From Lentzea sp. NBRC 102530 (GTDB lineage Bacteria > Actinomycetota > Actinomycetes > Mycobacteriales > Pseudonocardiaceae), in NCBI RefSeq assembly GCF_030269365.1, contig NZ_BSTF01000002.1:372001-436000 (forward strand): 64,000 bases of DNA. Reading direction: 5' to 3'. Both the position numbers and the translations under genes were made by a program. Below are positions 13,017 through 34,182 of the stretch, in pieces. Below the pieces are notes generated by a model, which made no database searches, was not told the DNA's origin, and saw only the letters and a program-made list of their open reading frames with translations. Position 1 is the first letter of the stretch. Each line of letters starts with the position of its first letter.

Positions 13017-13017
13017 G

Positions 13018-13779: not shown

Positions 13780-13815
13780 GCCTCTCCGCTTCGTCGGCGG
13801 CCAGTATGGCATACC

Positions 13816-13832: not shown

Positions 13833-13844
13833 CCGTTGAAGATC

Positions 13845-13856: not shown

Positions 13857-13885
13857 ATGCGTCCGAGCTGGGTATTGACCTGAGA

Positions 13886-13901: not shown

Positions 13902-13923
13902 TTCTACCTCACCCGTCGAGACC

Positions 13924-13937
13924 TGACCAATTGGTCA
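13924..13937. promoter_or_regulatory. Perfect palindrome TGACCAATTGGTCA near dasA
   Basis: A 14-bp perfect palindrome in the dasA leader, 22 bp before the GTG. Its half-sites (GACCA/TGGTC) are those of dre in the opposite order, so it may bind another regulator or act in the transcript. Confidence 0.45.
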
Positions 13938-13958
13938 CATCCCAGCGAGAGGTGAGTC

Positions 13959-18356: not shown

Positions 18357-19708
18357 CCGCGTCCTGCGCGGCGCTGGCGGTGGCCGCACTGGCCGTCGCA
18401 CCGAACGCGTTCGCCGCCGACGCGATCACCGCCCAGTACCGGACCAGCGCGTCCGGTGCGACGACCGACCAGGCGGAACCCTGGTTCAAGCTGGTCAACT
18501 CGGGCAGCACGAGCGTGCCGCTGTCCGAGGTGAAGATCCGCTACTACTTCAAGGCCGACACCCCGGACGTCGGCTACCGGTTCGCCTGCTCGTGGGCCGT
18601 GCGCGGCTGCGGCAACGTCACCGGCCAGTTCGGCACCCTCACCGGTGGCCCCGCCGACCGCTACCTGGAGGTCGGCTTCACCTCCGGCGCCGGCACCCTG
18701 AACGCCGGCGCCGACTCGGGCGACCTGCAACTCCGCTTCTACCGCACCAACTGGGGCCCGATCACCCAGACCGACGACTACTCGTTCCGCGCTGACAGCA
18801 ACTACTCGGCGTCGAACAAGGTGACCGTCCACCGCGGCAGCACGCTGCTGTGGGGCACCCCGCCAGGCGGCAGCCCACCCACCACCACGACGACCAGCTC
18901 CACGCCGCCGAACCCCAACGGCCCCAAGCTGTTCGACGACTTCGCCTACACCAGCTCGAGCGACTCGCGCATCAGCCAGCGCGGCTGGACGGTGCGTTCG
19001 GGCGCGGGTGGCCCCGGCGTCCCCGGCGCGGAGTGGGACGCCTCGCGCGTCACGTTCCCGACCGTCGACGGCCAGAAGGTCATGCGCCTCGACTCGTGGA
19101 ACAACGGCTCCGCCGCCAAGCAGACCGAGATGTTCCACCAGCGCAAGTTCTTCGAGGGCACCTACGCCTCGCGGGTGAAGTTCAGCGACGCCCCGGTCTT
19201 CGGCCCCGACGGTGACCACGTCGTGCAGACGTTCTTCACCATCACCCCGCTCGACGCGCCGATGGCCCCGGACTACGGGGAGATCGACTTCGAGTACCTG
19301 CCCAACGGCGGCTGGGGCGAGCAGGGCAACATCATGTACGAGACCACTTGGGAGACCTACCAGAACGAGCCGTGGGTGGCCGACAACATCCACAACTCCC
19401 AGCGCCAGAGCTACAACGGCTGGCACGACCTGGTCTTCCAGGTGGCGAACGGCCGGGTGAAGTACTACATCGACGGCAACCTGGTCGCCGACCACGGCGA
19501 CAAGTACTACCCGGAGACGCCGATGTCGATCAACTTCAACCTCTGGTTCATCTCGGGCGGCCTGCAGGGCAGCAGCGCCGAACGCGCCTACCAGCAGGAG
19601 GTCGACTACGTGTACTTCGCCAAGGACCAGGTGCTGAGCCCGGCCCAGGTGAAGACGGCGGTGCAGGACTACCGCAACGCGGGCGTCACGCACACCGACA
19701 ACGTCTGA
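18341..19708 (+). CDS. Secreted GH16 glycoside hydrolase with N-terminal CBM3-like domain
   Basis: 455 aa. Signal peptide to about residue 27 (NAFAAD). A cellulose-binding CBM3-like domain (about 28-165: 'WFKLVNSGSTSVPLSEVKIRYYF') comes next, then a Thr/Ser/Pro linker and a catalytic domain with the GH16 signature GEIDFE (about residue 310), whose two Glu residues are nucleophile and acid/base. It should cut a beta-1,3/1,4-glucan-type polysaccharide outside the cell; the exact substrate is open. The start is a TTG at 18341 backed by GAGGAGAG. The gene overlaps the GH20 gene by 16 bp. A hairpin follows. Confidence 0.8.
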   Translation: MRALLAASCAALAVAALAVAPNAFAADAITAQYRTSASGATTDQAEPWFKLVNSGSTSVPLSEVKIRYYFKADTPDVGYRFACSWAVRGCGNVTGQFGTLTGGPADRYLEVGFTSGAGTLNAGADSGDLQLRFYRTNWGPITQTDDYSFRADSNYSASNKVTVHRGSTLLWGTPPGGSPPTTTTTSSTPPNPNGPKLFDDFAYTSSSDSRISQRGWTVRSGAGGPGVPGAEWDASRVTFPTVDGQKVMRLDSWNNGSAAKQTEMFHQRKFFEGTYASRVKFSDAPVFGPDGDHVVQTFFTITPLDAPMAPDYGEIDFEYLPNGGWGEQGNIMYETTWETYQNEPWVADNIHNSQRQSYNGWHDLVFQVANGRVKYYIDGNLVADHGDKYYPETPMSINFNLWFISGGLQGSSAERAYQQEVDYVYFAKDQVLSPAQVKTAVQDYRNAGVTHTDNV

Positions 19709-19714
19709 CCGCGC

Positions 19715-19748
19715 ACGGGCGCCCCGGAACTCCTTTCGGGGCGCCCGT
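19715..19748. terminator. 12-bp perfect hairpin terminator
   Basis: ACGGGCGCCCCG pairs with CGGGGCGCCCGT across a 10-nt loop. It lies between the GH16 gene and the convergent RES-TIR gene and should stop both. It marks the boundary between the sugar locus and the conflict-gene region. Confidence 0.85.
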
Positions 19749-19749
19749 C

Positions 19750-20850
19750 TCAGTCCCGCAGCAACTCGTCCACCAATACCGCGATGTCGTGGTCGCCGTA
19801 CCCGCGGCGCAGGTGGTGGACCTGGACGTGCACCAGGTGGTGCAGCTCTTCCGGCAGCTGCTCGACCCTGAGTGCGCCTCTCAGCCCGACGAGCACTGGA
19901 ACCACCTTCTTTCCCTGCTGGTGTGCGAGAACCAGCTCCCTGCGCACCCAGTCCTGCGGATCGTCGAGGAACCGCACGCCGTCGTTGTTGGTCTGGCTCT
20001 CCCAGCGCCTGCCGACGACGGCGATCAGCGTCTCGCAGTTGCGGACGTTCTCCTCCAGCGCCTCGGTGAAGTCCGGCAGGCCTGGCCGCATCGACCGCAC
20101 GTCGTAGAAGACGGCCTGCTCGCCCAGCCGGCGGACCAGTTCCCGGTGCAGCAGTTCGGGTACGGCCTCCGCGTCACCGGTGCGGAAGTTGATGAAGAAC
20201 CTCGGCGGGGCCGGCGGCAGGTCGACCTCCACCCCGTACGGCTTGAGGAGGTCGCCCAGCCAGGACAGCTGCTCCGGCGTGTCGAGCGCACGCTGGACTC
20301 CCGACACCGGCGGGGCGGTGCACCGGTGGTCGAAGAGCACGACCGTTTCCCGGGGCATGTCCTCGATCGACTGCCAAAGGATCCCGTCCGCCCACGGCAC
20401 CTTCTCGTACAGCCACGCGGCCCACTGCCGGGTCTTGGGGAAGCTGTCCGGTGTGGTCGTGGTGAGCCAGGAGTCCTGGTGCACCTGCCCGAGTTCTGGC
20501 GTCGTGAGGAGGCGGATGAGGTTGAGCGGGCGGGTCGTCCTGACCTCACTGAGCACCTGACCGGCGAGCGCGGCGCCCGGCAGGATGCGCTGGACCCCGC
20601 GGGTGACCGCGAACTCACGCAAGAACCGTTCCGCCACAGCGGTTTCCGGGGCCGCGGACATGCACAGCGTGTGGTGTGAGGCGCCGTTGCACGCGTCGAA
20701 CCGGCCCCCGCCGAACGCGCTGTCGTGCCGGGGATCGAACATCCGCGGGTCGAGCGTGGCGGCGTGCACGCGGTAGAAGGTCCGTCCGGCTTCGATCGTC
20801 TCGCGCTTCGGAGTGCCGGTGAGATGAGGGGGCGGAGCCATGTCGGGCAC
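19750..20850 (-). CDS. RES-TIR fusion toxin (two NAD+-targeting domains)
   Basis: 366 aa. Residues about 20-180 form a RES domain: FYRV (Arg27), GGGRF (Arg50), 'APETAVAE' (Glu69) and 'GILWQS' (Ser161), the Arg/Glu/Ser set for which the family is named. RES toxins phosphorolyse NAD+. Residues about 215-345 form a TIR domain: 'RFFINFR', 'VFYDVRSMRPG', 'CETLIAVVGRRW' and 'DWVRREL' with the likely NADase Glu305. The start is the GTG at 20850 or the ATG at 20841, 3 nt after the stop of the antitoxin-like gene. Joining both domains in one chain is unusual. Activity of either domain is inferred from residues only. Confidence 0.85.
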   Translation of the reverse strand: MPDMAPPPHLTGTPKRETIEAGRTFYRVHAATLDPRMFDPRHDSAFGGGRFDACNGASHHTLCMSAAPETAVAERFLREFAVTRGVQRILPGAALAGQVLSEVRTTRPLNLIRLLTTPELGQVHQDSWLTTTTPDSFPKTRQWAAWLYEKVPWADGILWQSIEDMPRETVVLFDHRCTAPPVSGVQRALDTPEQLSWLGDLLKPYGVEVDLPPAPPRFFINFRTGDAEAVPELLHRELVRRLGEQAVFYDVRSMRPGLPDFTEALEENVRNCETLIAVVGRRWESQTNNDGVRFLDDPQDWVRRELVLAHQQGKKVVPVLVGLRGALRVEQLPEELHHLVHVQVHHLRRGYGDHDIAVLVDELLRD

Positions 20851-20853
20851 GGG

Positions 20854-21486
20854 TCAGCCCTCCGTCAGCGCGACGGCGGCCGCCACCAGCAGGTCGTCGG
20901 GTGTCCGTCCGATCAGCTCGTACGGCGGCTCGGTGAGCCAGGCGTTCGCGCTGAACCACCAGTCGGCCGCGCCCCACGGGTCTTCGTGGGCGCGCAGCAA
21001 CCAGTTCACCCGCAACACGACCTCCAGCGGTGCACCCGACTCGTCGAACTGGAACAGCGGCACGGACGCACTGCCGTCGTCGCGGTGCAGCTTGATCACC
21101 CCGAACGCGTCCGGGGCGTGCCCGCGTTCGCGCAGATCGGCAGCCGATTCCCACTCGTGCGTGAGAATGCGTTCTTTCGCGCTGCGCGGCCGCCCGTACA
21201 GGTTGACGTCACCGGAGATGGCAACGAGCAGGCGGTCGAGCTCGCGAATTTGTCCCGGGTTGGCATAACGGACCCCGGCGTCGGCGAAAACAGGGTCGTC
21301 ATGGGGGAGGAGCTCGCCGAGCAACCGCGTCAGGGCGTGTGCGATGGCGGCCCGCTCGTCGGCGCTTTGAGCGGACCGCAGCGCGTCGACCAGCCCGCGC
21401 AACCGGGTACGCCCGTGGGATCCGAGCAGGTGGGTGACCCTGTCCCAGTCCGCGACGAGCGCGTCGATGATGTGCTGCACCGCCAC
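20854..21486 (-). CDS. DUF2384 (MbcA/ParS/Xre-type)-like antitoxin candidate
   Basis: About 210 aa. The C-terminal ~65 residues resemble the toxin-binding domain of RES antitoxins: 'VNWLLRAHEDPWGAADWWF', 'NAWLTEPPYELIGRTPDDLL', ending in an Ala-rich helix. In MbcA/ParS families this end plugs the RES active site. The N-terminal two thirds is longer than usual and shows no clear helix-turn-helix; it has 'RLRGLVDALRSA' and 'ISGDVNLYGRP' segments I do not recognise. Several GTGs are possible; the one at 21486 has AGGAG 8 nt upstream. The gene precedes the RES-TIR toxin in the same operon, the order usual for this class. The assignment is probable but not certain. Confidence 0.65.
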   Translation of the reverse strand: MAVQHIIDALVADWDRVTHLLGSHGRTRLRGLVDALRSAQSADERAAIAHALTRLLGELLPHDDPVFADAGVRYANPGQIRELDRLLVAISGDVNLYGRPRSAKERILTHEWESAADLRERGHAPDAFGVIKLHRDDGSASVPLFQFDESGAPLEVVLRVNWLLRAHEDPWGAADWWFSANAWLTEPPYELIGRTPDDLLVAAAVALTEG

Positions 21487-21510
21487 GCGCACCACTCCTG
21501 TTCCGTAGAC

Positions 21511-21632
21511 AGGACATTCTGCCCCGGCCTCACCGTGAAATTTTGGTCAGAAAGAGGACATTTGATTGTCGTGCCCGGGAAATGCGTGGAGCGGGACGTA
21601 GCTTCTTTCTTCGTCCGCACATCCAGGACATG
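21511..21632. promoter_or_regulatory. Divergent promoter region with three AGGACAT direct repeats
   Basis: AGGACATT occurs at 21511-21518 and 21555-21562, and AGGACATG at 21625-21632, between the antitoxin-like gene and the seven-gene operon. The region also has the most A/T-rich stretch nearby (GAAATTTTGG). The repeats could bind the antitoxin or another regulator and tie the two divergent operons together. No -35/-10 pair is clear. Confidence 0.45.
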
Positions 21633-21643
21633 CGTGAGGTTCA

Positions 21644-22789
21644 ATGAGCTCATCCGTCGGTTATTACCTCTCTGCCGCTGACGTCGAAGCGCAACGCAGG
21701 CGCGACTTGCGCGCCGGCGTGGCCTCCGCCCTCGCCCGGTACGACGGGGTGCGGGCCAGGGCGCGCGGCATCGGACTCACGATCCCGGCCGTGAGGGCCG
21801 GTTTCACCGACGACACGACCAGTGACGAACTGCAGGAGCTGCTGCGGCGCGTGACCACCGCGCTCGACCACGCCGACGAGTCGATCAACGATGCCTGGCG
21901 GAGCCGGTGGCAGGCCGAGTTCGGGAAGGTCGCGCGGCACACCGTCGTGACCGGACTGTCCGCGCGGGACGAACTGGCGCGCGCCCAGTCCGAACCGGAC
22001 CGCGAGACGCTCGCGGTGCGCAGCGCGGTCGCCGACGCCGAGTCGTTGATCGAGAGCCAGGGCCACCGCTGCGACGAACAGGGCGTCGCGTCCGCGCGAG
22101 AGGCGTTCACGGAACTCGTGGAGGCCACGACGGTGGTGCGCGCCAGGACGCTGTCGCTGGAGATCGCGGTGATCATCCAGAAGTCGGTCGCGCGCCGCCG
22201 CGCCGCCACGACCCTGGAGGCCGAACGGGTGCGGCTGCTGGAGTTGGTGCGCGATGCCGCTGCCGCCGAGCAGGAGTCGTTGCGCGAGCTCGTCATGACC
22301 ACGGCTGACCTCGACGCGGCAGCGGGCGCCGTCTTCGGCTCGATCGAACGTGAGGACCGCGCCCGCCACCGCGAGCAGGTCGCGGACGCGGCCGCCCAGG
22401 CGTTGGAGGAACTCGGGTGCGTGGTCGGCGAGGAGTTCGAGTCGTTGCTGACGACCGAGAACGAAGCCGTCGTCGGGTTCCGCGCCCAGGACGGCTACGG
22501 GTTGCTCGTCCGGCTGCCCGAGGATGGTCAGTCGCTGCTCACGGCCGTGGTCCGCGCCGACGACCGGGCGGCGAGCGGCGTGCATGCCCTGGCGGTGCAG
22601 ACGGCTTACTGCGACGAGACCCTCCCGGAACTGCACGCCAAGCTGCGGGAACGAGGTGTGCACATCGGTGACGCGCCGTTCCTGCGCGGTGAACCGGGCA
22701 GACCCGTCCCCGTCGCGCCCTCGCCGTTGCCCGGCAGGCAGCGCAGGCACGAGACGAAGAGGGTGAAGGAGCGGGAACGTGAACGCTGA
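21644..22789 (+). CDS. Coiled-coil protein of unknown function, first gene of the AAA/radical-SAM/CHAT operon
   Basis: 381 aa, which I do not recognise. Long Glu/Arg/Ala-rich helices (about residues 10-270) look like coiled coil, followed by a compact segment (about 275-345: 'AVVGFRAQDGYGLLVRLPEDG', 'AVQTAYCDETLPELHAKLRERG'). A very basic tail ends KRVKERERER. It has no signal peptide, TM or catalytic motif. It begins at an ATG (21644) and overlaps the AAA+ gene by 11 bp. The layout would suit an adaptor or structural partner of the AAA+ protein; this is inference from position only. Confidence 0.75.
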   Translation: MSSSVGYYLSAADVEAQRRRDLRAGVASALARYDGVRARARGIGLTIPAVRAGFTDDTTSDELQELLRRVTTALDHADESINDAWRSRWQAEFGKVARHTVVTGLSARDELARAQSEPDRETLAVRSAVADAESLIESQGHRCDEQGVASAREAFTELVEATTVVRARTLSLEIAVIIQKSVARRRAATTLEAERVRLLELVRDAAAAEQESLRELVMTTADLDAAAGAVFGSIEREDRARHREQVADAAAQALEELGCVVGEEFESLLTTENEAVVGFRAQDGYGLLVRLPEDGQSLLTAVVRADDRAASGVHALAVQTAYCDETLPELHAKLRERGVHIGDAPFLRGEPGRPVPVAPSPLPGRQRRHETKRVKERERER

Positions 22790-24653
22790 GGTGCCCGCCT
22801 GGGTGCGCGAACTCGACCTCTCACTCATCACCCACCCGCAGGTCCTGCTGGTGGGCAACGTCCGCGACCGCTACTTCCTGCCGGCGGAGACCGGGCCGCA
22901 GCTGCTGCCCTTCGACCTCCCGCAGGTGGTCGAACGGTCGTGCCGGAGGCGGGGGTTCGCCGCGCTCTCGGTGTTCGACGTCGCCCGCGACCGGCTGGAC
23001 GTGTGGCGCCTGCGCGACGACGAACTGCGGTTGCCGGACGCGTTGAAGGAGTTCATCGCCGACGACGCGCTGTCGGCGCCGGGCAGGGACGGAGGGGCGC
23101 CCGACGACCTGGTGCTGCGCCGGACGCGCCGGGTGTTGCGCGACATCGTCACGTTCCGCGCCGCGCCGATCGGTCTGCTGTTCCCGTTCGCGGCCAGGCT
23201 CGGCTCGCCGCGCGCCGAGCTGACCGGGGAGGGCAAGCTGCTGATGGCGGCGGTGGAGGCACTCGCGCACGAGGCCCGTCCGGTGCCGGGGTCGTCGCCG
23301 GTCATGCCCTACAACACGGTCTTCTGGGTCGCTGAACGCGAGGAGCAGCTGCCGGTCGAGTTCGCGATCTCCCCGCGCACCGTCAAGGTGATCACCATCC
23401 CGGCCGCGCCCGCCGAACAACGGCTCGCGGCGGCGAGGCACGCGGTCACCGTGGTCTCGAGCAAGGCGGGCCAGGTCGTCGACCAGCGCACCCTCGACAA
23501 GGCAGCGGAGAACCTCGTCTCGGTGACGCACGGGATGAGCAACGCCGAGGTGCTCGCGGTGAGCAGCGTGGCCGTCGACCGCGGCCTGCCGGTCAGCAGG
23601 CTGGACGAGGCGGCACGGCTGTACCGGGTGGGCGTGCGGGACAACCCGTGGGCCGTGTCGTCCATCGTGGACACGATCGCGAACGCCGACTCCGCCGCGA
23701 TCGGCGTGATGGGCCAGGACCACGCCGTGAAAAAGGCCGTCGAGATCTTCATGCGGTCGGCGGCCGGTCTGACCGGTGCGCAGTCGTCCAGCTCGCCGAA
23801 CCGGCCGCGCGGTGTGCTGTTCCTCGCAGGGCCGACCGGCGTCGGCAAGACCGAGCTCGCGAAGGGCGTGGCACGGCTGATCTTCGGCAGGGACGCGGAG
23901 CCGGTCAGGTTCGACATGAGCGAGTTCCAGCAGGAGCACGCCCGTGAACGGCTCGTCGGCGCTCCTCCCGGGTACGTCGGCTTCGACGCGGGCGGTGAGT
24001 TGACGAACGCGGTGCGCGCCAACCCGATGAGCGTGCTGCTGTTCGACGAGATCGACAAGGCGCACCCGCGGTTGTTCGACCTGTTCCTGCAGGTGCTGGA
24101 GGACGGGAGGCTCACCGACGGCCGCGGCTCGACCGTGTACTTCACCGAGAGCGTGCTGATCTTCACCTCGAACCTCGGCGTGACCGATCCGCACGCACCG
24201 CCGGGTGCGCCGCCGCGGTTCACCCACCGGGACGACCCGGTCGAGGTGCGCAGGGTGTTGCAGCAGTCGTTCGAGTTCTTCTTCGACAACAAGATCGGCA
24301 GACCTGAGCTGCGCAACCGGCTCGGGGACGCGTTCATCGCGATGGACTTCATCCAACCCGAGATCGTCCCCGCGCTGCTGGACAAGGCGCTCACGTCGGT
24401 CGTGCGCCGGATGGACGTCGTGCACCGGGTGCGGCTCGAGATCGGGCAGGCCGCGCGCAGGACGTTGTACGACAAGGCGGTCGAGAACCTCGGGCACGGC
24501 GGACGCGGGGTGAACAACGCGGTCGAGACGGCTTTGATCAACCCGCTGTCGGAGATGGTGCTGCGGCAACCACCGGTACCCGACGAGACCTGGCGAATCG
24601 ATGCGCTGGTCGCGGAAGCGCAGGGGTGGCGGGTTGAGGTGACGCGGTGCTGA
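22779..24653 (+). CDS. ClpB-D2-like AAA+ ATPase with unusual N-terminal half
   Basis: 624 aa. The C-terminal half is a ClpA/B D2-type AAA+ module: Walker A GPTGVGKTELAK (about 351-362), 'RFDMSEFQQEHARERLVGAPPG' cut over pore-loop and dimer regions, Walker B LLFDEIDKAHP, sensor 1 IFTSNLG and an Arg-finger region RPELRNRLGD, followed by the small D2 lid. The N-terminal ~300 residues carry AAA-like strands ('QVLLVGNVRDRY', 'VIT' sensor-like and a helical lid) but no Walker A, so this looks like a dead or non-AAA domain. It should remodel or unfold proteins. It overlaps both neighbours. Confidence 0.85.
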   Translation: MNAEVPAWVRELDLSLITHPQVLLVGNVRDRYFLPAETGPQLLPFDLPQVVERSCRRRGFAALSVFDVARDRLDVWRLRDDELRLPDALKEFIADDALSAPGRDGGAPDDLVLRRTRRVLRDIVTFRAAPIGLLFPFAARLGSPRAELTGEGKLLMAAVEALAHEARPVPGSSPVMPYNTVFWVAEREEQLPVEFAISPRTVKVITIPAAPAEQRLAAARHAVTVVSSKAGQVVDQRTLDKAAENLVSVTHGMSNAEVLAVSSVAVDRGLPVSRLDEAARLYRVGVRDNPWAVSSIVDTIANADSAAIGVMGQDHAVKKAVEIFMRSAAGLTGAQSSSSPNRPRGVLFLAGPTGVGKTELAKGVARLIFGRDAEPVRFDMSEFQQEHARERLVGAPPGYVGFDAGGELTNAVRANPMSVLLFDEIDKAHPRLFDLFLQVLEDGRLTDGRGSTVYFTESVLIFTSNLGVTDPHAPPGAPPRFTHRDDPVEVRRVLQQSFEFFFDNKIGRPELRNRLGDAFIAMDFIQPEIVPALLDKALTSVVRRMDVVHRVRLEIGQAARRTLYDKAVENLGHGGRGVNNAVETALINPLSEMVLRQPPVPDETWRIDALVAEAQGWRVEVTRC

Positions 24654-25273
24654 GAACGAGCAGGGTGCTGCACCCGATCACGTCGCTGGGCCCCGGCCGT
24701 CGACTCGGGATCTGGGTGCAGGGCTGCACATTGGCCTGCAAGGGCTGCATGTCCCGCGACACCTGGGACGCCGGCGCCGGAACTCCGCTGAGCGTCGACC
24801 ATCTGCTGGAGCTGTGGCGAGAGGCCGTGCGGGCAGGTGTCGACGGGCTGACGGTGAGCGGGGGCGAGCCGCTGGAGCAGGCCGCGGCTCTCACCGAGTT
24901 CCTGGCGTCCGTGCCACTCGAGGGCAGGGACGTGTTGCTGTACACAGGACACGAGCTCGGCGAGCTGGACGACGAGCAAAGGGCGGTGCTCGGCCACGTG
25001 GACGCGGTGATCACCGGGCGGTACGTGGCGGGCGAGCAGCCGGGGCTGATCTGGAGGGGGTCGGCGAACCAGCGGCTCGTCCCGCTGACGCCGCTCGGCG
25101 AGGAGCGCTACCGGCCGTTCGTGGACCTGGCGAGCCGGGCGCAGGTGCAGGTCCGGGTGGACGACGGGCTGTTGTGGCTGGTGGGGGTGCCACCGGCCGG
25201 TGTGCTGCCGAAGGTCGAAAAACGCCTGCGCGACAACGGGATCGTGTTCGAGGAGGCTGCATGGCGCCCGTGA
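24647..25273 (+). CDS. Radical SAM / 4Fe-4S single-cluster protein (NrdG/activase-like)
   Basis: 208 aa. The N-terminal CTLACKGC gives the CX3CX2C iron-sulfur motif (Cys27, Cys31, Cys34) preceded by 'GIWVQG', as in NrdG and pyruvate-formate-lyase activases. 'LTVSGGEPLEQ' is the SAM-binding GGE motif. The protein is short and lacks extra SPASM clusters. It should bind SAM reductively and activate or modify a partner protein, but no glycyl-radical enzyme is adjacent, so the partner is unknown. Start GTG at 24647, overlapping the AAA+ stop by 7 bp. Its place inside a kinase/FHA/CHAT operon is unusual. Confidence 0.85.
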   Translation: MLRTSRVLHPITSLGPGRRLGIWVQGCTLACKGCMSRDTWDAGAGTPLSVDHLLELWREAVRAGVDGLTVSGGEPLEQAAALTEFLASVPLEGRDVLLYTGHELGELDDEQRAVLGHVDAVITGRYVAGEQPGLIWRGSANQRLVPLTPLGEERYRPFVDLASRAQVQVRVDDGLLWLVGVPPAGVLPKVEKRLRDNGIVFEEAAWRP

Positions 25274-25737
25274 TCTACCGCTGTCCCGACGACCCCGGAG
25301 GGTGTCCCTCCACGCTCAGCCCCGGTTTCTGCGCGGTCCACCCGGCGACGATGCTGGAGGCGGTCCGCGCGGCGGCGTTCACCACCGGGGAGACGCCGGC
25401 GGCCGCCGAACCCGCTGAGGCGCTGACGTTGCGGTTCCTGGGGCGCCTGATCGAGATCCCGCCCGAGGGCGTGGAGATCGGCCGCGAGACCGGGCCGCTC
25501 GCGTCCGTGCCGGGCATGGCGGAGCTCACCCAGGTCTCCCGACTGCACGCCACGATCTACCCGCTCAACGGACGCCTCTACGTCAGGGACGAGGACTCGG
25601 TCAACCACACCTACCTGGACGGCAGGCGGGTCACCGTTCCGCGCCGCCTGGAGGCCGGCCAGGTGCTGCGCCTCGGCCTGGACGTGGAGCTGCAGGTCGA
25701 AGGAGTGCGGTACGACGAGTTCGGGCTGCCGTCGTGA
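25261..25737 (+). CDS. FHA-domain protein with N-terminal Cys/His cluster
   Basis: 158 aa. The N-terminus has Cys8, Cys15, Cys25 and His28 (CPDDPGGC...FCAVHP), a possible zinc site. The C-terminal part (about 58-150) is an FHA domain with the pThr-binding set: EIGRE, 'SRLHATI' (Ser-Arg-x-His) and 'NHTYLDG'. FHA domains bind phosphothreonine, and the operon encodes a kinase and a phosphatase, so this is the likely reader of that signal. The ATG at 25261 has AGGAGG upstream and overlaps the radical-SAM gene by 13 bp. Confidence 0.85.
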   Translation: MAPVIYRCPDDPGGCPSTLSPGFCAVHPATMLEAVRAAAFTTGETPAAAEPAEALTLRFLGRLIEIPPEGVEIGRETGPLASVPGMAELTQVSRLHATIYPLNGRLYVRDEDSVNHTYLDGRRVTVPRRLEAGQVLRLGLDVELQVEGVRYDEFGLPS

Positions 25738-26456
25738 AGCGCGTGGAGGTCGCGGCGATCACCAGCAGGGGACTCGTGCGCGCAGGCAACGAGGACAGGG
25801 TGTCCGTCTTCGGCTGGCTGGCGCCGCGGGAGATGACCGAGCCCGTGCTGCTCACGCGCGCGACGTCCGAACCCGTGCTGGTCGTCGTGGCGGACGGGCT
25901 GGGCGGGCACCAGGCGGGCGAGGTGGCCAGTGAGTTCGCGGTGACGGCCCTGCACACCGCGCTGCCGGACGTCGTGGCCGACCCCGCGCAGGCGTTCGGG
26001 CGCGTGCACGAGGACCTGCTGGCACTGGGCGCGTCCCAGCCGGAGTTCGAATCGATGGCGACGACGGCCACGGCGTTGCTGATCACCGACGTGATCACGC
26101 TCTGCCACGTGGGCGACAGCAGGGCGTACTACGTCGAACCCGGCTTCGTCACGCAGCTCACGACGGACCACACCGAACCCGGTGGCGCCCTCACCCAGGT
26201 GCTCGGCGGCCGGCCGGGCCGCGAGGTGGTGCCGCAGGTGCGCGAGGTGGATTCGGCCGACTGCCTGCGCTTCCTGCTGTGCTCGGACGGACTTCACTCC
26301 TACGTGGACGCTGCCGTCGTGCGCGAGGAGGCGGCGCTGGAGTCGTCCTTCGGCGCCGCGCGGGCGCTGGTGCGAGCGGCTTTCGAGGCCGGCGCTCCGG
26401 ACAACGTCTCGGTGTGCGTGGTCACCGTGTGGCTCGAAGGGGAACGAGATGACTGA
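25734..26456 (+). CDS. PP2C-family Ser/Thr phosphatase
   Basis: 240 aa. All PP2C metal-site motifs are visible: RAGNEDRV, VADGLGGHQAGE, GDSRAYYV, CSDGLHSYV and GAPDNVSV. It is soluble and metal-dependent, and dephosphorylates Ser/Thr. The GTG start overlaps the FHA gene stop (GTGA), and its own stop overlaps the kinase ATG by 8 bp. It would switch off the phosphorylation set by the adjacent kinase. Confidence 0.92.
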   Translation: MKRVEVAAITSRGLVRAGNEDRVSVFGWLAPREMTEPVLLTRATSEPVLVVVADGLGGHQAGEVASEFAVTALHTALPDVVADPAQAFGRVHEDLLALGASQPEFESMATTATALLITDVITLCHVGDSRAYYVEPGFVTQLTTDHTEPGGALTQVLGGRPGREVVPQVREVDSADCLRFLLCSDGLHSYVDAAVVREEAALESSFGAARALVRAAFEAGAPDNVSVCVVTVWLEGERDD

Positions 26457-29055
26457 GCCCGTACCGAGACCCAGCACGCCGACCGTGCAGCAAGGGTCGA
26501 ACCCGACGGTCGCGCAGCACGGCAAGTCCGTTCCCACCGTGCAGCAGGGCCCGGTGGCCGCGCCGCGGGAGAACCCGGAGACGCCGGAGTTCCCGGACCA
26601 GCTGCGGGACCGGTTCGAACCGCTGGCCGTGCTCGGCACCGGGACCGAGGGCGTGGTCTGGCGGTGCCGCACGCCTCAGGGCGACGAGATCGCGGTGAAG
26701 GTGCACTGGGCGAACCACAAGGCGGACACGGCACTGCTGGCGCACCTGGACAGGAGTGAGTTCCGGCGGCACGTGCCGCAACTGTGCGGGCACGGCTCGT
26801 TCATCAGCCCGTACGGCCCGATCCACTGGGTGGCGATCGAACTCCTCGAAGCCACGCTGGACCAGGAGATCCGCGAGAGGTTCGCCGCCGGGTGGTCCGC
26901 GGGCTGGGCGCTCGGTGTGCTGCGCGAACTCGCGCAGGCGTTGCACTTCTGGCAGACGGAGGTGGGCCGCAACCCGATCGACGTGAAGCCGGACAACTGG
27001 ATGCGACGCGCCAACGGCCAGTACGTCGTCGTGGACTTCGGCGGTGTCGTCGGGTTCACCGCGAGCCAGCAGATCGGCAGCACCACCATGGCCGCGCGGG
27101 CCTACACACCGCCGGAGCAGTACTGGCAGGAGAAGGGCGGGCCCTGGCCGTGGTGGACGCTCGGCGAGATCGCCTACCAGCTGTGCACCGGGCACATGCG
27201 GTTCCAGCGTCCCAACGGCGAGATGCTGTCCGACGAGGTCATCAACCGCATCCGCGCGCTGGGTGAGCTCGACCTGACCGATGTCGCGGACGAGCGGTGG
27301 CGGTCGTTGATCTCCGGCCTGCTCACGACTGATCCCGCCGACAGGTGGGGGTGGGTGCAGGTCGAGGACTGGCTCGCGGGTGGCAACCCACCGGTGGCGG
27401 CGCGGGGGCACGCCGCAGCGCCGGGACGTTCGCCGATCACGTTCGTGGACGGCCGGATGTTCACCGACCCCGCAGACCTGGCCGTGGCGATGCTCGACAA
27501 CCCGCACGCCGCCGAACGCTGGCTGACCGGCGACGGCCGTCAGGTCCTGGACACCTGGTTGAAGAAGGAGGAACTCCAGAACCGGTTCGACGTTCTGCGC
27601 TTGCGCGGAGCCACGACGGGTTCGGCACGGCTGCACAGCGGCGTGCTCGCGTTCGGCGCGGCGTTCGCGCCCGAGGTCACCCCGCGCTACCGGGGCCGTC
27701 CCGTCGACAGCGACGGACTGGTGGCGGTGCTCGCGGAACCCGACGGCTTCGAGTTCGCGGGCGAGGTCGTGCTCGGGGACGTGCTCGGCACCGCGGGTGG
27801 CTATCGCTGCCGTCACCACGGATGCGGTGAGCGGTGCGCCGTGCTGGACCGCGCCGCCGCCGAACTCCCGGTGCTGGTGCAGGACGCCGAACGGATCATC
27901 ACCGGGTCCGGCTCCGGCGCGTTGCAGAGCGGTGAGCGCGAACGCTTGCACGGCATGGCTTTGCTGCTCGTGCTGCGCCCGGACGAGGCCGCGCGGGTGC
28001 TGCGACCGTCGCCGTGGGTGCGGCTGGCGAACGTGCCGTGGTGGCGCCCACTCGCCAAGCAGTTCCCGTCTACCTCGACCGCGCACGGCCGCGCGACCCT
28101 GCTGGCCCAGGGGATCCTGCAGGAACGTGCCGCACTGCAACGGCCTCGGCGTGAGACCGGGAGGTTCTCCGCTCGCGGCGTCCTGCGGAAGATCGGTGCG
28201 GTCGTCGTGCTCTGGTACGTGATGATCGCCGCCGCGTGGGTCGCGGTGGTGCTGAGCAACGGCGACCTGGCGTTCAACGGTGGTCCCGACGGCGAACGCC
28301 AGGCCGCGACGCTCGGCGCGTCGGCTCAGATGGTGCTGGCACTGCCGTTGATGGTGCTGGCCGTCGAGCTCGTGTTGCTGGTGAGGACCAGAGGAGCGGT
28401 CGCGGCCGGCGTGGTGTCGGCCGCGGCGCTGGGCGTCGCGCTGCCCCACCTCCCGCTGTTCACCGCCGCCAGCTCGCCGGACCTGATCGCGAGCCAGGTG
28501 ACCTCGCTCGCCGAGGTGTGGGCGGAGGGCATCGTGGTCGGGCTGGTGCTCATGACCGCCGGTGGCCTCGCGCTGGCGTCGCTGGCCCGGTCGTGGCTAC
28601 CGGAGACGGCGCCGCGCGGGGTGAGCAGGTGGAGCTCCAACCGGGCGGTGATCGCCCTGATGGCCCTGGTGGCACTGGCTTCGCTGTTCTGGGCGGCCGT
28701 CGTGCTGAGGCTGATGATCTACTCCGCCGACGTGAGCACGGCCGACCCCGGTGGCTACGCGGCGTTCCTGCAGAGCGGCTACCTGCTGGCGCTGGCCGCG
28801 GTCGCCGCCGCGATCGCGCTGTCGGGACGGAACACGATCGGCACGCTGACGGTCGCCGTGCCGGCCGTGCTCGTGCTGGCTGCGATCGCGAAGCCGTTGC
28901 CGGAGTTGAGGTTCCTGTGGCTGCTGTTCCTGCGCGAACCGCTGCTGTCGTTCGCCGGGCTGTGGGGCCAGGCCGCGTTCTGGGCCGCCCTGCTGGTGCA
29001 CGTGCCGCTGACCGTGGTGTGCGTGCGCGGGATCCGCCGGGCGGTGGACGCCTGA
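26449..29055 (+). CDS. Multi-pass membrane Ser/Thr protein kinase
   Basis: 868 aa. The first ~30 residues hold three PTVxQ repeats. The kinase domain (about 48-300) has GTGTEG, AVKVHW, an atypical catalytic loop IDVKPDN (Asp, Lys and Asn kept; the HRD His-Arg missing), DFGG and a PPEQYW in place of APE. The middle region (about 330-570) is unrecognised and contains a Cys/His cluster (CRHHGCGERC). The C-terminal ~290 residues form about eight membrane helices. It is probably active, though divergent. It is the signal-input candidate of the operon. It overlaps the CHAT gene by one base (TGATG). Confidence 0.85.
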   Translation: MTEPVPRPSTPTVQQGSNPTVAQHGKSVPTVQQGPVAAPRENPETPEFPDQLRDRFEPLAVLGTGTEGVVWRCRTPQGDEIAVKVHWANHKADTALLAHLDRSEFRRHVPQLCGHGSFISPYGPIHWVAIELLEATLDQEIRERFAAGWSAGWALGVLRELAQALHFWQTEVGRNPIDVKPDNWMRRANGQYVVVDFGGVVGFTASQQIGSTTMAARAYTPPEQYWQEKGGPWPWWTLGEIAYQLCTGHMRFQRPNGEMLSDEVINRIRALGELDLTDVADERWRSLISGLLTTDPADRWGWVQVEDWLAGGNPPVAARGHAAAPGRSPITFVDGRMFTDPADLAVAMLDNPHAAERWLTGDGRQVLDTWLKKEELQNRFDVLRLRGATTGSARLHSGVLAFGAAFAPEVTPRYRGRPVDSDGLVAVLAEPDGFEFAGEVVLGDVLGTAGGYRCRHHGCGERCAVLDRAAAELPVLVQDAERIITGSGSGALQSGERERLHGMALLLVLRPDEAARVLRPSPWVRLANVPWWRPLAKQFPSTSTAHGRATLLAQGILQERAALQRPRRETGRFSARGVLRKIGAVVVLWYVMIAAAWVAVVLSNGDLAFNGGPDGERQAATLGASAQMVLALPLMVLAVELVLLVRTRGAVAAGVVSAAALGVALPHLPLFTAASSPDLIASQVTSLAEVWAEGIVVGLVLMTAGGLALASLARSWLPETAPRGVSRWSSNRAVIALMALVALASLFWAAVVLRLMIYSADVSTADPGGYAAFLQSGYLLALAAVAAAIALSGRNTIGTLTVAVPAVLVLAAIAKPLPELRFLWLLFLREPLLSFAGLWGQAAFWAALLVHVPLTVVCVRGIRRAVDA

Positions 29056-32000
29056 TGGCCGACGACCACCGCGAACGCTTCGACCTGGTCGAGTCGTTGC
29101 TCTCGGAGTTCGAGACGCGACTGGACGAGGGCGAACCCGGCGACCAGGCGCTCCTCGACGACGTCAGGTACCACCTCGACTGGATCCAGGCCGTGGCGGG
29201 AGAACCGTCGTTCGACTGGCTGTGGGCCCATTACCTGAGCGCGTCGTGGCACCGCTGCCGCGCCCAGCTGTGGGAGGACGTGAACGAGATCGACGCCGCC
29301 GTGGCCGAACTGCGCCTGGTGGTCGGCTACTCCGACACGTTCTACTTCCGCCTCGACCTCGTCGAGTTGATCCAGCTCCGCTACCACGTCACCGACACCG
29401 GCGACCGCCCCTACCTCGCCGAGATCGTCGCGGAGCTGCGTGCCCTGTCCCTGCGCGAGCCCGATGACGAGGAAGACGGAGCCAGGGTGTCGTCCCTGCT
29501 GGGGCAGACGCTGCGCGAGCAGTTCCGGCGCGAGCTGAACGCCGACGAGAACCCGGCGCCGGAACTCCTCGACGAGGCCGAGCAGCACCTGTACGCGAGC
29601 CTCGACGTGACCGAGGACGTCGAGACCGTGCTGGACCTCGCGAGGCTGTTGTCGTTCCGGTCCGGCACGACGATCGACCTCTACGCGCGCGACCGGGAAG
29701 CGGACCGGCAGGAGGCGATCACGCTCTACGAGATGGTCGCGCTGGACGTGCCGGACGCCGCCTTCGAACTGAGCGACCTCTTCACCGAGGACCGCGACGA
29801 GATGATCGGCCGTTCGCAGGCGTTGCGGGCGATCGACAGCGTCAAGCACTCGCCCCAGTGGGAGAAGCACAAGGGGCAGTACGCGATCCGGCGCGGCGAC
29901 CTGCTGATCAGCCAGGCCCGCGAGAACCCGGCGGAGCTGCCCTCGCTGATCGACTACCTCGAGGACGCGTTCGACACCCAGCCGGACGAGGGACTGCTCG
30001 GGAGCGCGCTCCTGGAGGCGCACTGGCTGGCGGGCGACGCCGAGGCCACGCTCAGGACGGTCGACCGGCTCACCGGAATCGAGGACGGGCCGCCACCGGA
30101 GGTGCTCCTGCCGTTGCGTGCCGTGGCGACGGCATCGCTGGCGTTGCGCGGGCGCGCCGACCGGGCGGAGGCCGAACGGCTGCTGCGGTCGTGCACGCGC
30201 GAACCCACCGAGCTGAGCTGGACGAAGCAGCTGCCGTTGGCCTTGCTGCCGATGGTGACGAACGAGCTGGCCGAGGTGCCCGAATCCCTTGCCGCGTCGG
30301 TGATCGGCGACGGCGACGTGGAACAGGTGGCGCGGGGCCTGCTCGACTGGCTCACCCGGCACGAGCAGCCCGGTTCCGACTGGCTCTGCGCGGTGGCGAT
30401 GCTGAGGGCCAAGCTGGCGGACGACCAGGACACCAGGCTGGCCGCGTTGCGCGCCCTGGCCGCGGCCCGCGCCGCCGTCACCGCGGAAGGTCCGCTGGCA
30501 CTCGAGCTGCTGGTGCGGCACGCGACAGTGCTCGCGAGCCACGGCGAGGAAACGAACGACCGCGATGCGGAGATCGAGTCCGCCGCGCTGCTGAACGAGT
30601 ACTTCGCCAGGGCGGACGCGGACGATCCACTCCAGACCGTCGCGCTGGCGCTGCACGGCGTGGTCGTGGCGGAGGTGCACGCCCGCGGTGGCGTGGCGAA
30701 CATCCCCCTGAGCCACGCCAAACCCGCCCTGGAGAAGGCGTGCGCGGACCACGAACTCGACCCGGACCTCCGCTCGACCCTGCTGGTCCAGCTCGCACGG
30801 CTGGAGGTGCTGCTGACCGTCCAGGAGCGCGTGGACCACTACCGGGCGGCCATCGGCCACTGCGCGGAGGCGATGAGCCTGGTGGAACCGGGTAGCGAGG
30901 AGCACGACCAGGCCTGGCTCATGCTGGGGCTGGTGCTGCTCAGCAGGTTCCACGAGCACGGCGGCCGCCACGATCACGACGCGGGCTTACGACACCTGCA
31001 CGCGGTGCGCGAGTCGAGGCTCGGGCGCGGGATCGACGTCGCCGATGTCGACGACGTCCTGCGCGCGGTCGAACCGTTCCTCACCGACGGGGGCGGCCTC
31101 GACATCGGCATGACGGTCGCCGAGATCTACGCGAGGCTGGCGGAGCTGGACCGCAGCGAACTGGATCCGGCTCTGCTGGTGGCGGAACGGATGCTGCTCC
31201 TGCAGGGCCTGCTCAAGCACGGCAGCGACGCGAACGACGTGGCGGTGCTGGCGGACGCCCTCGACCAGCTCGGGAAGACCGCCGACGTGTTCCAGGCGGG
31301 CTCGGCGATGTACGCGGCGACCACCGTGGCCGGCCTGTACGGATCCACGGGCGCCGCGGCGGCGAGAGGCGACACCGCGAAGTTCCTCGACGGGATCGCC
31401 AAGCTGGAGGCGGTCCGCGACGACCCGGCGACCACGGGCGTCGACCGCAACCTCGCGTCGTTCGGTCTCTCGATCTGCTGGCACGCCCGGCACATGGCCA
31501 CCCGGAGCACGGCGGACCTGGACAAGGCGTTGCTCCACTACAGCTCCGTGAACACCGACTCGGTGGGCATGCGGGACGCCACCGGGTTGCTGGACGGCTT
31601 GGCGGACAGCTGCTGGAAGCTCCTCCCACTGGGGTACGGCACGGTCGCCGTCTCGATCGGTTTCGACACCCTGAAGGTCAGGGCGCGGCACGTGCTGGCG
31701 CAGAGCACCGGGGAGCACGCGGCTGCGCAGGCTTCGGACGCGGCTGCTCGCGGTCAGCGCGTGGCGTTGCGCTGTGCCGCGTCGGGTGAGCTCCGCCGGG
31801 CCGTCGAGGCGGTGGAGTGGGGGCGTGGACTCGTGTTGCACAGCGCCACGTCCACCGCGGGCATCGCCGCGAAGCTGAAGGCGGCCGGACACCTCGACCT
31901 CGCGGCCGAGTTCGAGGTGGGGGAGGATCAGGACCTGGCGCCCAGCGACGTGCGGCGGCGGGCGTTGGCCGCGCTGGGCAGCGAGGTCGAGACGTTGACG

Positions 32001-33089
32001 CCACCTGCGCTGGAGGAGATCGCCTCCGCGTTGCGGGCGCTGGATGCGGTCGCGCTCGTGCACCTGGTACCCGGTCAGGGTGACCACTCCGGACGGGCGT
32101 TGGTGACGTCGGCGGACGGCTCGGTGTCCGAGGTGCTGCTGCCGTTGCTGTTGGACGGTCCGGACGGCGAAGTCGGGCGGTACCTGGCGCTGGACGACCG
32201 GCGACGACGTGAGGCGCTGCCCTCGTTGTGCGCCTGGGCGTGGCGGGTGGCGGTGGAGCCGTTGCTGCACAGGACTTCCGGCTGGCTCGTACTGGTGCCG
32301 ACCGGTGCGTTGGGGGTGGTGCCCTGGCACGCCGCCTCCGGTGGTGGGCGGACCGCGGTGCACGAGGCCGGGTTCACGTACGCGGCGTCCGCGCGCCAGT
32401 TGTGCGAACTGGCGCACCGGGAACGGCAGCCGGTGGGGGCCTCGCCGGTGGTGGTGAGCAACCCGGCCGGGACGCTGGCGGCGACGCAGTACGAGGCCGA
32501 GTTCCTGCACGGGCTCTACCCGCACGGGCACTTCTACGGTCAGGCCGGGCCCGGAGTACCGGTGCACGGGGTGGGTACTCCCGACGAGGTGCTGGAGGAG
32601 ATCGGGGCCTCGTTGCTGCACTTGGGATGTCACGCCCGTGCGGGTGCCACGCCGGCCCAGTCGGCGTTGGAACTGGCGCGCGCGGACCTGTCCGTTGAGC
32701 GGATGCTGCGGCATGCGGCCGTGCGGCGACACGGGGTGCCGGGTGGGCTTGTGGTGCTGGCGGCGTGTGAGAGCGACCTGACGGCGGGCCTGCACGACGA
32801 GGGGCTCACGTTGGCGGCGGCGTACGGCGCGGCGGGGGCCACCGGGGTCGTCGGTACGAAGTGGAAGGTGGACGACGTCGAGTCGGCGTTGCTGATGTGC
32901 GTGTTCTACGACTTCCTGGCGCGCGGCGACATGCGGCCTCGCGACGCGTTGCGGGCGGTGCAGCTGTGGGCGTTGGACCCGGACCGGGTGGTGCCGGTGG
33001 GCGTGGCGCGGCACCTCGCGGAACGCGGCAGGGCGGCCTCGCTCGCGGATCCCGTGTACTGGGCGGCGTTCGCGCACCACGGGTGGTGA
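29055..33089 (+). CDS. CHAT-domain caspase-like protease with large helical-repeat region
   Basis: 1344 aa. Residues 1 to about 950 are alpha-helical, TPR-like solenoid repeats rich in Leu/Ala/Glu. The C-terminal ~350 residues are a CHAT domain with the catalytic dyad visible: His about 1193 (LHLGCHARAG) and Cys about 1238 (LAACESD), followed by 'GTKWKVDD'. CHAT proteases cut specific protein targets and are known effectors of bacterial conflict systems. It is the last gene of the operon and, at 1344 aa, its largest product. The target is unknown; candidates are encoded upstream in the same operon. Confidence 0.9.
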   Translation: MADDHRERFDLVESLLSEFETRLDEGEPGDQALLDDVRYHLDWIQAVAGEPSFDWLWAHYLSASWHRCRAQLWEDVNEIDAAVAELRLVVGYSDTFYFRLDLVELIQLRYHVTDTGDRPYLAEIVAELRALSLREPDDEEDGARVSSLLGQTLREQFRRELNADENPAPELLDEAEQHLYASLDVTEDVETVLDLARLLSFRSGTTIDLYARDREADRQEAITLYEMVALDVPDAAFELSDLFTEDRDEMIGRSQALRAIDSVKHSPQWEKHKGQYAIRRGDLLISQARENPAELPSLIDYLEDAFDTQPDEGLLGSALLEAHWLAGDAEATLRTVDRLTGIEDGPPPEVLLPLRAVATASLALRGRADRAEAERLLRSCTREPTELSWTKQLPLALLPMVTNELAEVPESLAASVIGDGDVEQVARGLLDWLTRHEQPGSDWLCAVAMLRAKLADDQDTRLAALRALAAARAAVTAEGPLALELLVRHATVLASHGEETNDRDAEIESAALLNEYFARADADDPLQTVALALHGVVVAEVHARGGVANIPLSHAKPALEKACADHELDPDLRSTLLVQLARLEVLLTVQERVDHYRAAIGHCAEAMSLVEPGSEEHDQAWLMLGLVLLSRFHEHGGRHDHDAGLRHLHAVRESRLGRGIDVADVDDVLRAVEPFLTDGGGLDIGMTVAEIYARLAELDRSELDPALLVAERMLLLQGLLKHGSDANDVAVLADALDQLGKTADVFQAGSAMYAATTVAGLYGSTGAAAARGDTAKFLDGIAKLEAVRDDPATTGVDRNLASFGLSICWHARHMATRSTADLDKALLHYSSVNTDSVGMRDATGLLDGLADSCWKLLPLGYGTVAVSIGFDTLKVRARHVLAQSTGEHAAAQASDAAARGQRVALRCAASGELRRAVEAVEWGRGLVLHSATSTAGIAAKLKAAGHLDLAAEFEVGEDQDLAPSDVRRRALAALGSEVETLTPPALEEIASALRALDAVALVHLVPGQGDHSGRALVTSADGSVSEVLLPLLLDGPDGEVGRYLALDDRRRREALPSLCAWAWRVAVEPLLHRTSGWLVLVPTGALGVVPWHAASGGGRTAVHEAGFTYAASARQLCELAHRERQPVGASPVVVSNPAGTLAATQYEAEFLHGLYPHGHFYGQAGPGVPVHGVGTPDEVLEEIGASLLHLGCHARAGATPAQSALELARADLSVERMLRHAAVRRHGVPGGLVVLAACESDLTAGLHDEGLTLAAAYGAAGATGVVGTKWKVDDVESALLMCVFYDFLARGDMRPRDALRAVQLWALDPDRVVPVGVARHLAERGRAASLADPVYWAAFAHHGW

Positions 33090-33095
33090 TCGTGC

Positions 33096-33497
33096 TCAGG
33101 TGCCGGTCACGGCCTCGCAGGTGACCTTCTCACCGGGTTTGCCCGTGGCGGACGCCAGTTCCTTGACGCCGTCGAGCAGGATCCGGCACGTCAGCACCTG
33201 GTCGCCCTTCGGCGTGACGGCGACCTGGGCCTTCTCGCCGGCGTTGACGATGACCTCGGTCGTCCACGGCAGCGGCGCCGCCGTGCTGACGTTCTGCGGG
33301 GTCTCCTTGCGGTTGCGGTCGGGCGACTCGGCGTACGTCACGTCCGCGAGGGTGTCCGCCGGTTGGGCCGACGCCTCGTAGGTGATGGCCCAGGACTTGC
33401 CGATCAGCGTGTTCCAGCCGCCCAGGTGGTTCACCAGCGCGACGGTTCCGCCGCCGAGCACTGCCAGCACGGCGAGGACGACCAGGAGCGTCTTCAT
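33096..33497 (-). CDS. MmpS-like membrane-anchored protein
   Basis: 133 aa. One N-terminal TM/signal-anchor (KTLLVVLAVLAVLGGGTVAL) precedes an extracellular beta-sandwich-like part ('ITYEASAQPADTLADVTYAE', 'EVIVNAGEKAQVAVTPKGDQVLTCRILLDG'), the pattern of MmpS-type transport accessory proteins. No MmpL gene is adjacent, so its partner is unknown. The ATG at 33497 is at the start of the TM segment; upstream in-frame codons would place charged residues before it. It is convergent with the CHAT gene, only 6 bp away. Confidence 0.65.
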   Translation of the reverse strand: MKTLLVVLAVLAVLGGGTVALVNHLGGWNTLIGKSWAITYEASAQPADTLADVTYAESPDRNRKETPQNVSTAAPLPWTTEVIVNAGEKAQVAVTPKGDQVLTCRILLDGVKELASATGKPGEKVTCEAVTGT

Positions 33498-33573
33498 AGG
33501 ACAGACGGTAGTGGTGGCGGCGTGCGCCGGCATCGTTCGGCGGGGTGACCGGTGGGTCATCCCGCAGGACGAC

Positions 33574-34182
33574 TCACTTGAGCAGCAGGCGGACCGTGAG
33601 TTCGAGGCGGTTCGCGACGTCGGTCGCGGTGGCGCGGCGGGTCACCCAGGCGACCAGGTTCGACAGCCACACGTCGCCGATCACGCGGGCGATGGCCTTC
33701 TGCTCGTCGGTGGGGGCGTCGTCGCTCATCGCCTTGGTGAACATGCTCTCCATCAGCAGCGAGACCTTGTCGATCTCGGCGCCGGCGGAGGCGTCGGCGA
33801 AGGTGAACGCGCGCGTCATCGCCTCGGTGAGGTGCGGGTTGCGCTGCAGGCCCCTGGTGATGCGGCCCAGCACGAACAGCAGGCGCTCGTAGGGGCTCTC
33901 GCCGGGAACGGTGGTGCGGTCCATCTTCTCCTGGGCGCGCTCCAGTTCCACCGCGAGGCTCGACACGAGCAGGTGGACCTTCGAGGGGAAGTAGCGGTAC
34001 AACGTGCCCAGCGCCACGTCCGCGCGGTCGGCCACGGCACGCATCTGGACGGCGTCGAACCCGCCCTTGGACGCCAGCGCGATCGTCGCGTCGACGATCC
34101 GCTTGCGACGCTCGCGCTGGGCCGCCGAGCTGAGCTCGTCGCCCGCCATCAACGCGTCCGTGCGCGACTTCGAAGGTGACAC
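33574..34182 (-). CDS. kstR: KstR, TetR-family repressor of steroid catabolism
   Basis: 202 aa. The N-terminal TetR DNA-binding domain ('SAAQRERRKRIVDAT', 'VADRADVALGTLYRYFPSK') and body ('LQRNPHLTEAMTRAFTFADAS', 'ARVIGDVWLSNLVAWVTRRA') closely follow mycobacterial KstR. KstR is released by a steroid CoA thioester and controls side-chain and ring A/B genes. The GTG at 34182 is chosen because AGGAGG lies 9 nt upstream. A KstR box overlaps that Shine-Dalgarno, so the gene is probably autoregulated. It is divergent from fadE34, the order seen in mycobacteria. Confidence 0.93.
   Translation of the reverse strand: MSPSKSRTDALMAGDELSSAAQRERRKRIVDATIALASKGGFDAVQMRAVADRADVALGTLYRYFPSKVHLLVSSLAVELERAQEKMDRTTVPGESPYERLLFVLGRITRGLQRNPHLTEAMTRAFTFADASAGAEIDKVSLLMESMFTKAMSDDAPTDEQKAIARVIGDVWLSNLVAWVTRRATATDVANRLELTVRLLLK

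Follow-up and report, generated by a model that had tools for sequence, protein, structure and literature searches.

A nine-gene cassette of Lentzea built on a kinase, a AAA+ motor and an NrdG-like radical SAM protein appears to be a so far undescribed system of bacterial immunity or self-destruction

In the FtsH-type MoxR-vWA ternary conflict systems, a stand-alone radical S-adenosylmethionine (SAM) protein is thought by the authors who described it to modify a peptide (Kaur et al. 2020, PMC7159879). This protein is the closest published idea to the one at the centre of the locus reported here, a nine-gene cassette in the soil actinomycete Lentzea sp. NBRC 102530. The cassette lies in a window of 64,000 nucleotides (contig 2, positions 372001-436000, of a 9.53 Mb genome) and consists of a seven-gene plus-strand operon and a divergent minus-strand gene pair. 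It has the appearance of an immune or self-destruct system that has not been described in bacteria before. We are all but sure that the cassette is one system, and its genes suggest that it would probably serve in conflict or defence. Its features, in window coordinates and with Pfam matches, are as follows.

19749-33092, no strand assigned: nine-gene block, empty at the equivalent chromosomal site of congener G706
19750-20850, minus: RES-TIR fusion, 366 amino acids (aa); RES PF08808 8.3e-11 at 25-177 (over cut-off), TIR_2 2.8e-9 at 218-345
20854-21495, minus: C6, 213 aa; no Pfam match; accompanies RES in 9/9 RES loci
21644-22789, plus: coiled-coil protein (COIL), 381 aa; no Pfam match over cut-off
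22779-24653, plus: AAA+ protein, 624 aa; AAA_2 6e-43, ClpB_D2-small 8e-5; family-specific N-domain (profile A2) and ClpB-D2-like motor
24647-25273, plus: NrdG-like radical SAM protein, 208 aa; Fer4_12 8e-30, Radical_SAM 8e-8
25261-25737, plus: zinc/FHA protein, 158 aa; Cys-containing N-terminus and FHA 3.2e-11
25734-26456, plus: PP2C phosphatase, 240 aa; PP2C_2 4e-12
26449-29055, plus: Ser/Thr-type kinase, 868 aa; Pkinase 2e-12
29055-33089, plus: CHAT protease, 1344 aa; CHAT PF12770 9e-34

The cassette and the FtsH-type MoxR-vWA systems have in common a AAA+ protein, a stand-alone radical SAM protein (in the simpler subtype), swappable effectors and actinobacterial occurrence (PMC7159879). None of the nine window proteins, however, has a vWA, MoxR or EAD match in Pfam. 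The FtsH-type AAA+ proteins of those systems pair an inactive first domain with an active second one, whereas the cassette motor is ClpB-D2-like and the cassette core includes a kinase and an FHA protein. Given the missing matches and the different motor, we rejected membership in the MoxR-vWA systems; a vWA-like gene was recognised by eye in two relatives, L031 and L109. Other described systems share single parts with the cassette. The CHAT domain matches Csx29, the TPR-CHAT protein of type III-E (Craspase), at residues 1186-1274 (6e-8), but the cassette contains no CRISPR gene and its partners are different. The motor region alone of the AAA+ protein matches the PADLOC models DolB of Dodola (2.7e-15) and PDC-M37B of PDC-M37 (2e-27); the N-domain and partners differ from those of both, and none of the seven operon proteins matches DolA. 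Compared with the RES-type toxin-antitoxin systems NatRT and GndRX (PMC12457610), the window's RES domain is fused to TIR and, in the loci seen, always occurs with CHAT, and neither an Xre nor a DUF2384 match was obtained for C6. No description of the gene set was found in open-licence PubMed Central papers, a scope outside which most subscription papers lie.

Direct reading of the operon bore out the observations of an earlier note on this DNA, which had reported seven plus-strand genes overlapping by 1-13 base pairs (bp) and had named their domains and motifs. With the listed starts, the overlaps are 11, 7, 13, 4, 8 and 1 bp in order. Pfam and a motif scan recovered the motifs it had given. 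The AAA+ protein has a Walker A motif from residue 351, GYVG from 398 and LLFDE from 420; the radical SAM protein has CX3CX2C starting at Cys27, GGEP from 72 and WRGSxNQ; and the phosphatase carries D-x-GG, GDSR, DGLH and DNVS. The kinase retains AVK, DxKPxN and DFG and has eight hydrophobic segments in a Kyte-Doolittle scan; the gene caller favours a start at 26485, which would shorten it to 856 aa. The His/Cys motifs of the CHAT protease are intact (HLGCH from 1189, AACES from 1236), and the start of AACES places the Cys at 1238. A further match to the kinase profile lies in the flank at 1-19000 of the window.

The gene set is more than a chance assembly, because it recurs in other genomes. 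We counted its members, with profiles trained on the same loci that were counted, in loci found by two routes. Whole-genome searches showed the AAA+ N-domain to be rare (6/396 genomes at the level of the phylum, 8/397 of the order and 9/394 of the class, with some genomes shared among samples), and a radical SAM gene lies within ~3 kilobases (kb) of the match in 6/6 phylum genomes. Among 15 loci picked by the N-domain alone, window excluded, radical SAM is present in 15, kinase in 14, FHA in 14 and COIL in 12, not counting COIL candidates seen by eye only in L109, L110 and L116. The same loci contain PP2C in 6, CHAT in 4, RES in 1 and C6 in 1; the PP2C-like gene of L109 was recognised by eye only. 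A radical SAM scan gave 57 loci, 23 of which (L009-L029, L031 and L036) were treated as system loci. These hold AAA in 21 (L019 and L021 have no AAA match within the stretch covered), kinase in 20, FHA in 18, COIL in 17, CHAT in 11, RES in 7, C6 in 7 and PP2C in 2. COIL, PP2C, CHAT, RES and C6 were each found in 0 of 38 control loci, which gave FHA in 1, AAA in 2 and kinase in 3; these controls (613 kb) comprised the rest of the 57, L067, L104 and the two window flanks, and 36 of them have an NrdG-like protein. Pairwise distances also correlate between partners (AAA and radical SAM 0.81, AAA and COIL 0.92, AAA and kinase 0.92, radical SAM and kinase 0.80), and none of 2000 permutations reached values as high.

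The core is therefore COIL, AAA+, NrdG-like radical SAM, zinc/FHA protein and kinase, and effectors swap around it. We rejected CHAT and PP2C as core genes, with only 4/15 and 6/15 AAA-found loci. The complete seven-gene set occurs in 3 of 39 loci, a total that includes the window and leaves out L107, a 5.7-kb contig of G370: in the window, in L114 (same order, one strand) and in L115 (CHAT on the opposite strand). L010 and L014 keep the same gene order minus PP2C, with FHA and kinase in a single gene in L014. The unified system proposed in the earlier note thus survives this co-occurrence check as a five-gene recurrent core, in a block that is present or absent at one site, while two of the seven members prove optional. 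PP2C is found in 6/15 and 2/23 loci, and CHAT, cast as the end point, in 15 of the 38 loci besides the window, with other phyla using other partners. The radical SAM protein had been singled out as the most novel part, with no obvious substrate; we found no obvious ordinary client for it either, but it is the most constant partner of the AAA+ protein (15/15 AAA-found loci) and no oddity. The main correction is one of roles: CHAT is an attachable output, and radical SAM, AAA+, COIL, FHA and kinase are the machine.

The unit is also larger than the seven genes to which it had been limited. The divergent minus-strand pair at 19750-21495, overlooked at that stage and separated from the operon by 148 bp, belongs to the same unit, making nine genes. 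RES-TIR is a predicted consumer of nicotinamide adenine dinucleotide (NAD+), and C6 is predicted to be its restraint or a DNA-binding partner. The site was compared in four congeners. The flanks of the block (window 13998-19708 and 34309-38283) neighbour each other in 4/4 congeners at 85-91% identity, with a spacing of 14.6 kb in the window, 2.7 kb in G706, 3.2 kb in G603, 14.5 kb in G595 and 16.9 kb in G738. In G706 the homologues of window 19748 and 33093 are only 42 bp apart (19000-19748 and 33093-33575 aligned); because G706 joins window ~19748 to ~33093, the nine genes have been gained or lost as one block. In the window, the block begins right after a terminator-like hairpin, read by eye. 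The site is variable, since congeners hold other cargo or none there: TIR-GUN4, nSTAND1-HEAT, Band_7 and phage-sheath-like proteins, among others, in G595 (L139), and NB-ARC, OmpA-family and phosphorylase-family proteins in G738 (L140). There is also a difference outside the block: near window 33575, G706 and G738 carry a gene for 467-469 aa that is missing from the window. The AAA+ N-domain has no match in any of the four congeners (0/4).

What accompanies the core changes from locus to locus; within Actinomycetota its optional companions are CHAT and RES with C6. CHAT is present in 16/39 loci including the window (15/38 without it), and a domain-only profile returned the identical 16. RES and C6 occur together in 9/39 loci, always with CHAT (9/9). 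In 7 of these 9 there is also a protein with a weak Macro-domain match (for example L012 10647-11813, 3.4e-5), which would fit the handling of ADP-ribose products. Beyond that phylum, a helicase-nuclease partner (DUF4011-SF1 helicase-MTES_1575 nuclease) takes this place in Providencia (L029), on a Rhizobium plasmid typed as conjugative (L142) and on a Bacillota plasmid (L143). In two loci from metagenome-assembled genomes, whose organism names may be wrong, the core of L036 is joined by an SF1 helicase together with a PLD protein, and that of L031 by a sacsin/NO VEIN protein together with a KAP-like NTPase. Among PADLOC models, these non-actinobacterial partners match best to PDC-S37 (475 bits), TmtA (371), MkoA (351) and PifA (83).

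The radical SAM protein is of the NrdG/PFL-activase kind and has NrdG as its best named family (5.8e-27), but scores 94.5 bits against an NCBIfam NrdG cut-off of 126.1. Across 23 radical SAM sequences, 24 columns are invariant, including the three cluster cysteines and GGEP. A search for NrdD (PF13597) returned 0 matches in this genome, whereas the control search was positive in 6/14 genomes. The sole glycyl-radical enzyme of the genome, which is pyruvate-formate-lyase-like, has an adjoining activase-like gene, identified as such by eye and from a blastp hit. With no NrdD, and with the only glycyl-radical enzyme having its own activase-like neighbour, the radical SAM protein lacks an obvious ordinary client. 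We accordingly rejected it both as the NrdG of a class III reductase and as the activase of that glycyl-radical enzyme.

Related radical SAM proteins occur in other settings. Elsewhere in the same genome, L104 (G000:C8:62001-82000, at 9136-19999) encodes a second NrdG-like radical SAM protein. Its neighbours there are an EAD1 protein, a AAA protein, a protein that weakly resembles a DO-GTPase, and a coiled coil whose sequence begins MSGRK and lacks a Cys close to the C-terminus. On the Geminocystis plasmid pGM01 (L146, 719-13651), a related radical SAM gene lies within a few kb of genes for a dGTP triphosphohydrolase and for a dCTP deaminase annotated as anti-phage; small GTPase-like genes come next. 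In L046 (4548-12167), L048, L050 and the plasmid loci L144 and L148, an NrdG-like radical SAM gene stands beside genes for a Ycf46-like AAA protein and for DUF1257-like and DUF2997 proteins. These operons share with the cassette the same radical SAM family adjoining a AAA protein, and the COIL C-terminus shows a marginal likeness to DUF1257 and DUF2997. They differ in that DUF1257 and DUF2997 are separate small proteins, neither of which has a Pfam match among the nine window proteins, and in their neighbours, which are a kinase, Hsp70 or helix-hairpin-helix protein. No CHAT or RES was found in the 34 Ycf46-like or other NrdG-like loci scanned.

This resemblance, if real, singles out COIL. When 27 diverse COILs (16-30% identity to that of the window) are aligned, only the start Met and Cys323 are invariant. 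The predicted structure (mean predicted local distance difference test score 85) has long helices followed by a helix-strand-strand-strand-helix domain whose final helix contains Cys323. When the C-terminal 150 residues of 37 COILs were compared with DUF1257 and DUF2997 rows from the other radical SAM operons, P was 0.02 and 0.06 singly. The match follows the order of those genes, and the COIL Cys falls on the invariant DUF2997 Cys. A joined DUF1257-DUF2997 profile matched COIL at E 6e-4 with a score of 29.7, against 18.3 for the best of 150 column shuffles, a lenient control. In a set of 35 real families drawn from these loci, DUF1257 (0.0084) and DUF2997 (0.048) gave the two lowest E-values, with 0.10 in third place; ranking by raw score puts DUF2997 8th. 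The COIL C-terminal domain is thus probably a distant relative of DUF1257/DUF2997. Since DUF1257 and DUF2997 accompany related radical SAM proteins in other AAA+ operons, and COIL matches them weakly, COIL is the likeliest substrate, and we tentatively suggest that the radical SAM protein may act on it. A second candidate site lies at its N-terminus. With the gene caller's starts, an MS-(x)-G pattern (MS at the start and a G among positions 3 to 5) is found in 24/37 COILs against 25/1166 other proteins. The sequences are related and hence not independent, so that the Fisher value of this contrast does not give a true probability; the L013 COIL and the L116 candidate stayed among the 1166, and some of the misses would fit from a start further upstream, which was not counted. 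MSGPK is the N-terminus of four plasmid copies, which come from Pseudomonadota and Bacillota.

The sequences show which genes are present and conserved, that their catalytic motifs are intact, that they are inherited together, that the block is gained or lost as a whole and that the effectors change. From this we infer a role, substrates and an order of events for a phosphorylation-gated conflict cassette, acting in immunity or self-destruction. The radical SAM protein would modify COIL, at the N-terminal MS-(x)-G tail or the invariant Cys of the DUF1257/DUF2997-like domain. Kinase and FHA protein, in the window together with PP2C, would set a threshold. Once this is passed, the AAA+ motor would remodel COIL or a COIL-bound partner, and in the window variant the output would be CHAT proteolysis. 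We regard this general mechanism as possible, at somewhat short of even confidence. The most attractive CHAT target would be C6, the predicted restraint on RES-TIR, and released RES-TIR would consume NAD+ and arrest or kill the cell; that CHAT acts through C6 and RES-TIR is, on the sequence evidence, a doubtful addition. The conflict cassette is supported by the co-occurring core, the correlated distances, the empty site or other cargo there (TIR, STAND), the restriction of RES and C6 to CHAT loci and the matches of partners to defence models, and also by the COIL match to DUF1257-DUF2997 and a radical SAM protein with neither NrdD nor a free glycyl-radical client. A bolder form, which we think decidedly unlikely, is a radical-based immunity switch. 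Here an orphan NrdG-type activase would endow COIL with either a stable radical or a modification made by radical chemistry, and the AAA+ protein under kinase/FHA control would read it and release swappable effectors (in the window, CHAT acting on C6 to free RES-TIR as a double NADase); the same module would underlie the DUF1257/DUF2997 operons and the EAD1/AAA locus L104.

Several observations weigh against a conflict cassette. PADLOC models match none of radical SAM, FHA, PP2C, CHAT, COIL, RES-TIR or C6. Seven loci of Actinomadura and related organisms (L018, L020, L023, L026, L117, L119 and L120) have the core next to the same typA/bipA-like gene, and neither CHAT nor RES is present; there the core looks inherited and regulatory, not mobile, and is perhaps a domesticated form. 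Layout varies too: the radical SAM and AAA+ genes are several kb apart in L012-L017 except L014, and L113 has its radical SAM gene on the opposite strand. The COIL link depends on marginal single E-values (0.0084 and 0.048), the MS-(x)-G pattern is not universal, and the window COIL itself, starting MSSSVGYY, falls outside the pattern as counted.

The typA/bipA-side loci fit another explanation, in which the cassette is a chaperone-type stress or quality-control system, not aimed mainly at invaders: a ClpB-like motor would be tuned by phosphorylation, the Fe-S radical SAM protein would be a redox sensor, and toxins would be attached in some lineages only. The ClpB-D2-like motor and the many loci without a recognised effector (CHAT in 4/15) agree with this. 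Its rare and patchy occurrence, its absence from all four congeners, the variable chromosomal site and the plasmid copies with nuclease partners do not, and we judge it a minority possibility. The effectors raise a separate question, namely whether two neighbours have been taken for one system, a kinase/AAA+/radical SAM operon and a toxin-antitoxin-like RES-TIR/C6 module merely travelling along. RES and C6 are divergent, on their own strand, and missing from 30/39 loci, but they occur only with CHAT, leave the site together with the operon and are found in 0/38 control loci, which makes this account unlikely. Least probable by far is that the radical SAM protein is an ordinary NrdG or glycyl-radical-enzyme activase in the operon by chance. 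Its best named family and its WRGSxNQ motif would suit such an enzyme; the shortfall against the NrdG cut-off, the genome's lack of NrdD, the glycyl-radical enzyme's own activase-like neighbour and the 15/15 AAA-found loci argue otherwise.

If the conflict reading is true, immune or self-destruct systems built on a AAA+ protein under kinase control would form an additional class, found in Actinomycetota and, where the partners differ, also in Pseudomonadota and Bacillota, plasmids included. The question of why NrdG-like radical SAM proteins occur in conflict neighbourhoods then becomes testable, COIL being the one candidate substrate and offering two possible sites. A further suggestion is that a RES-type NADase may be gated by a CHAT protease. 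At the extreme end of a viral contig of 50 kb, which also carries phage-like genes, stands another AAA+ member of the family (L141, 7980-9866).

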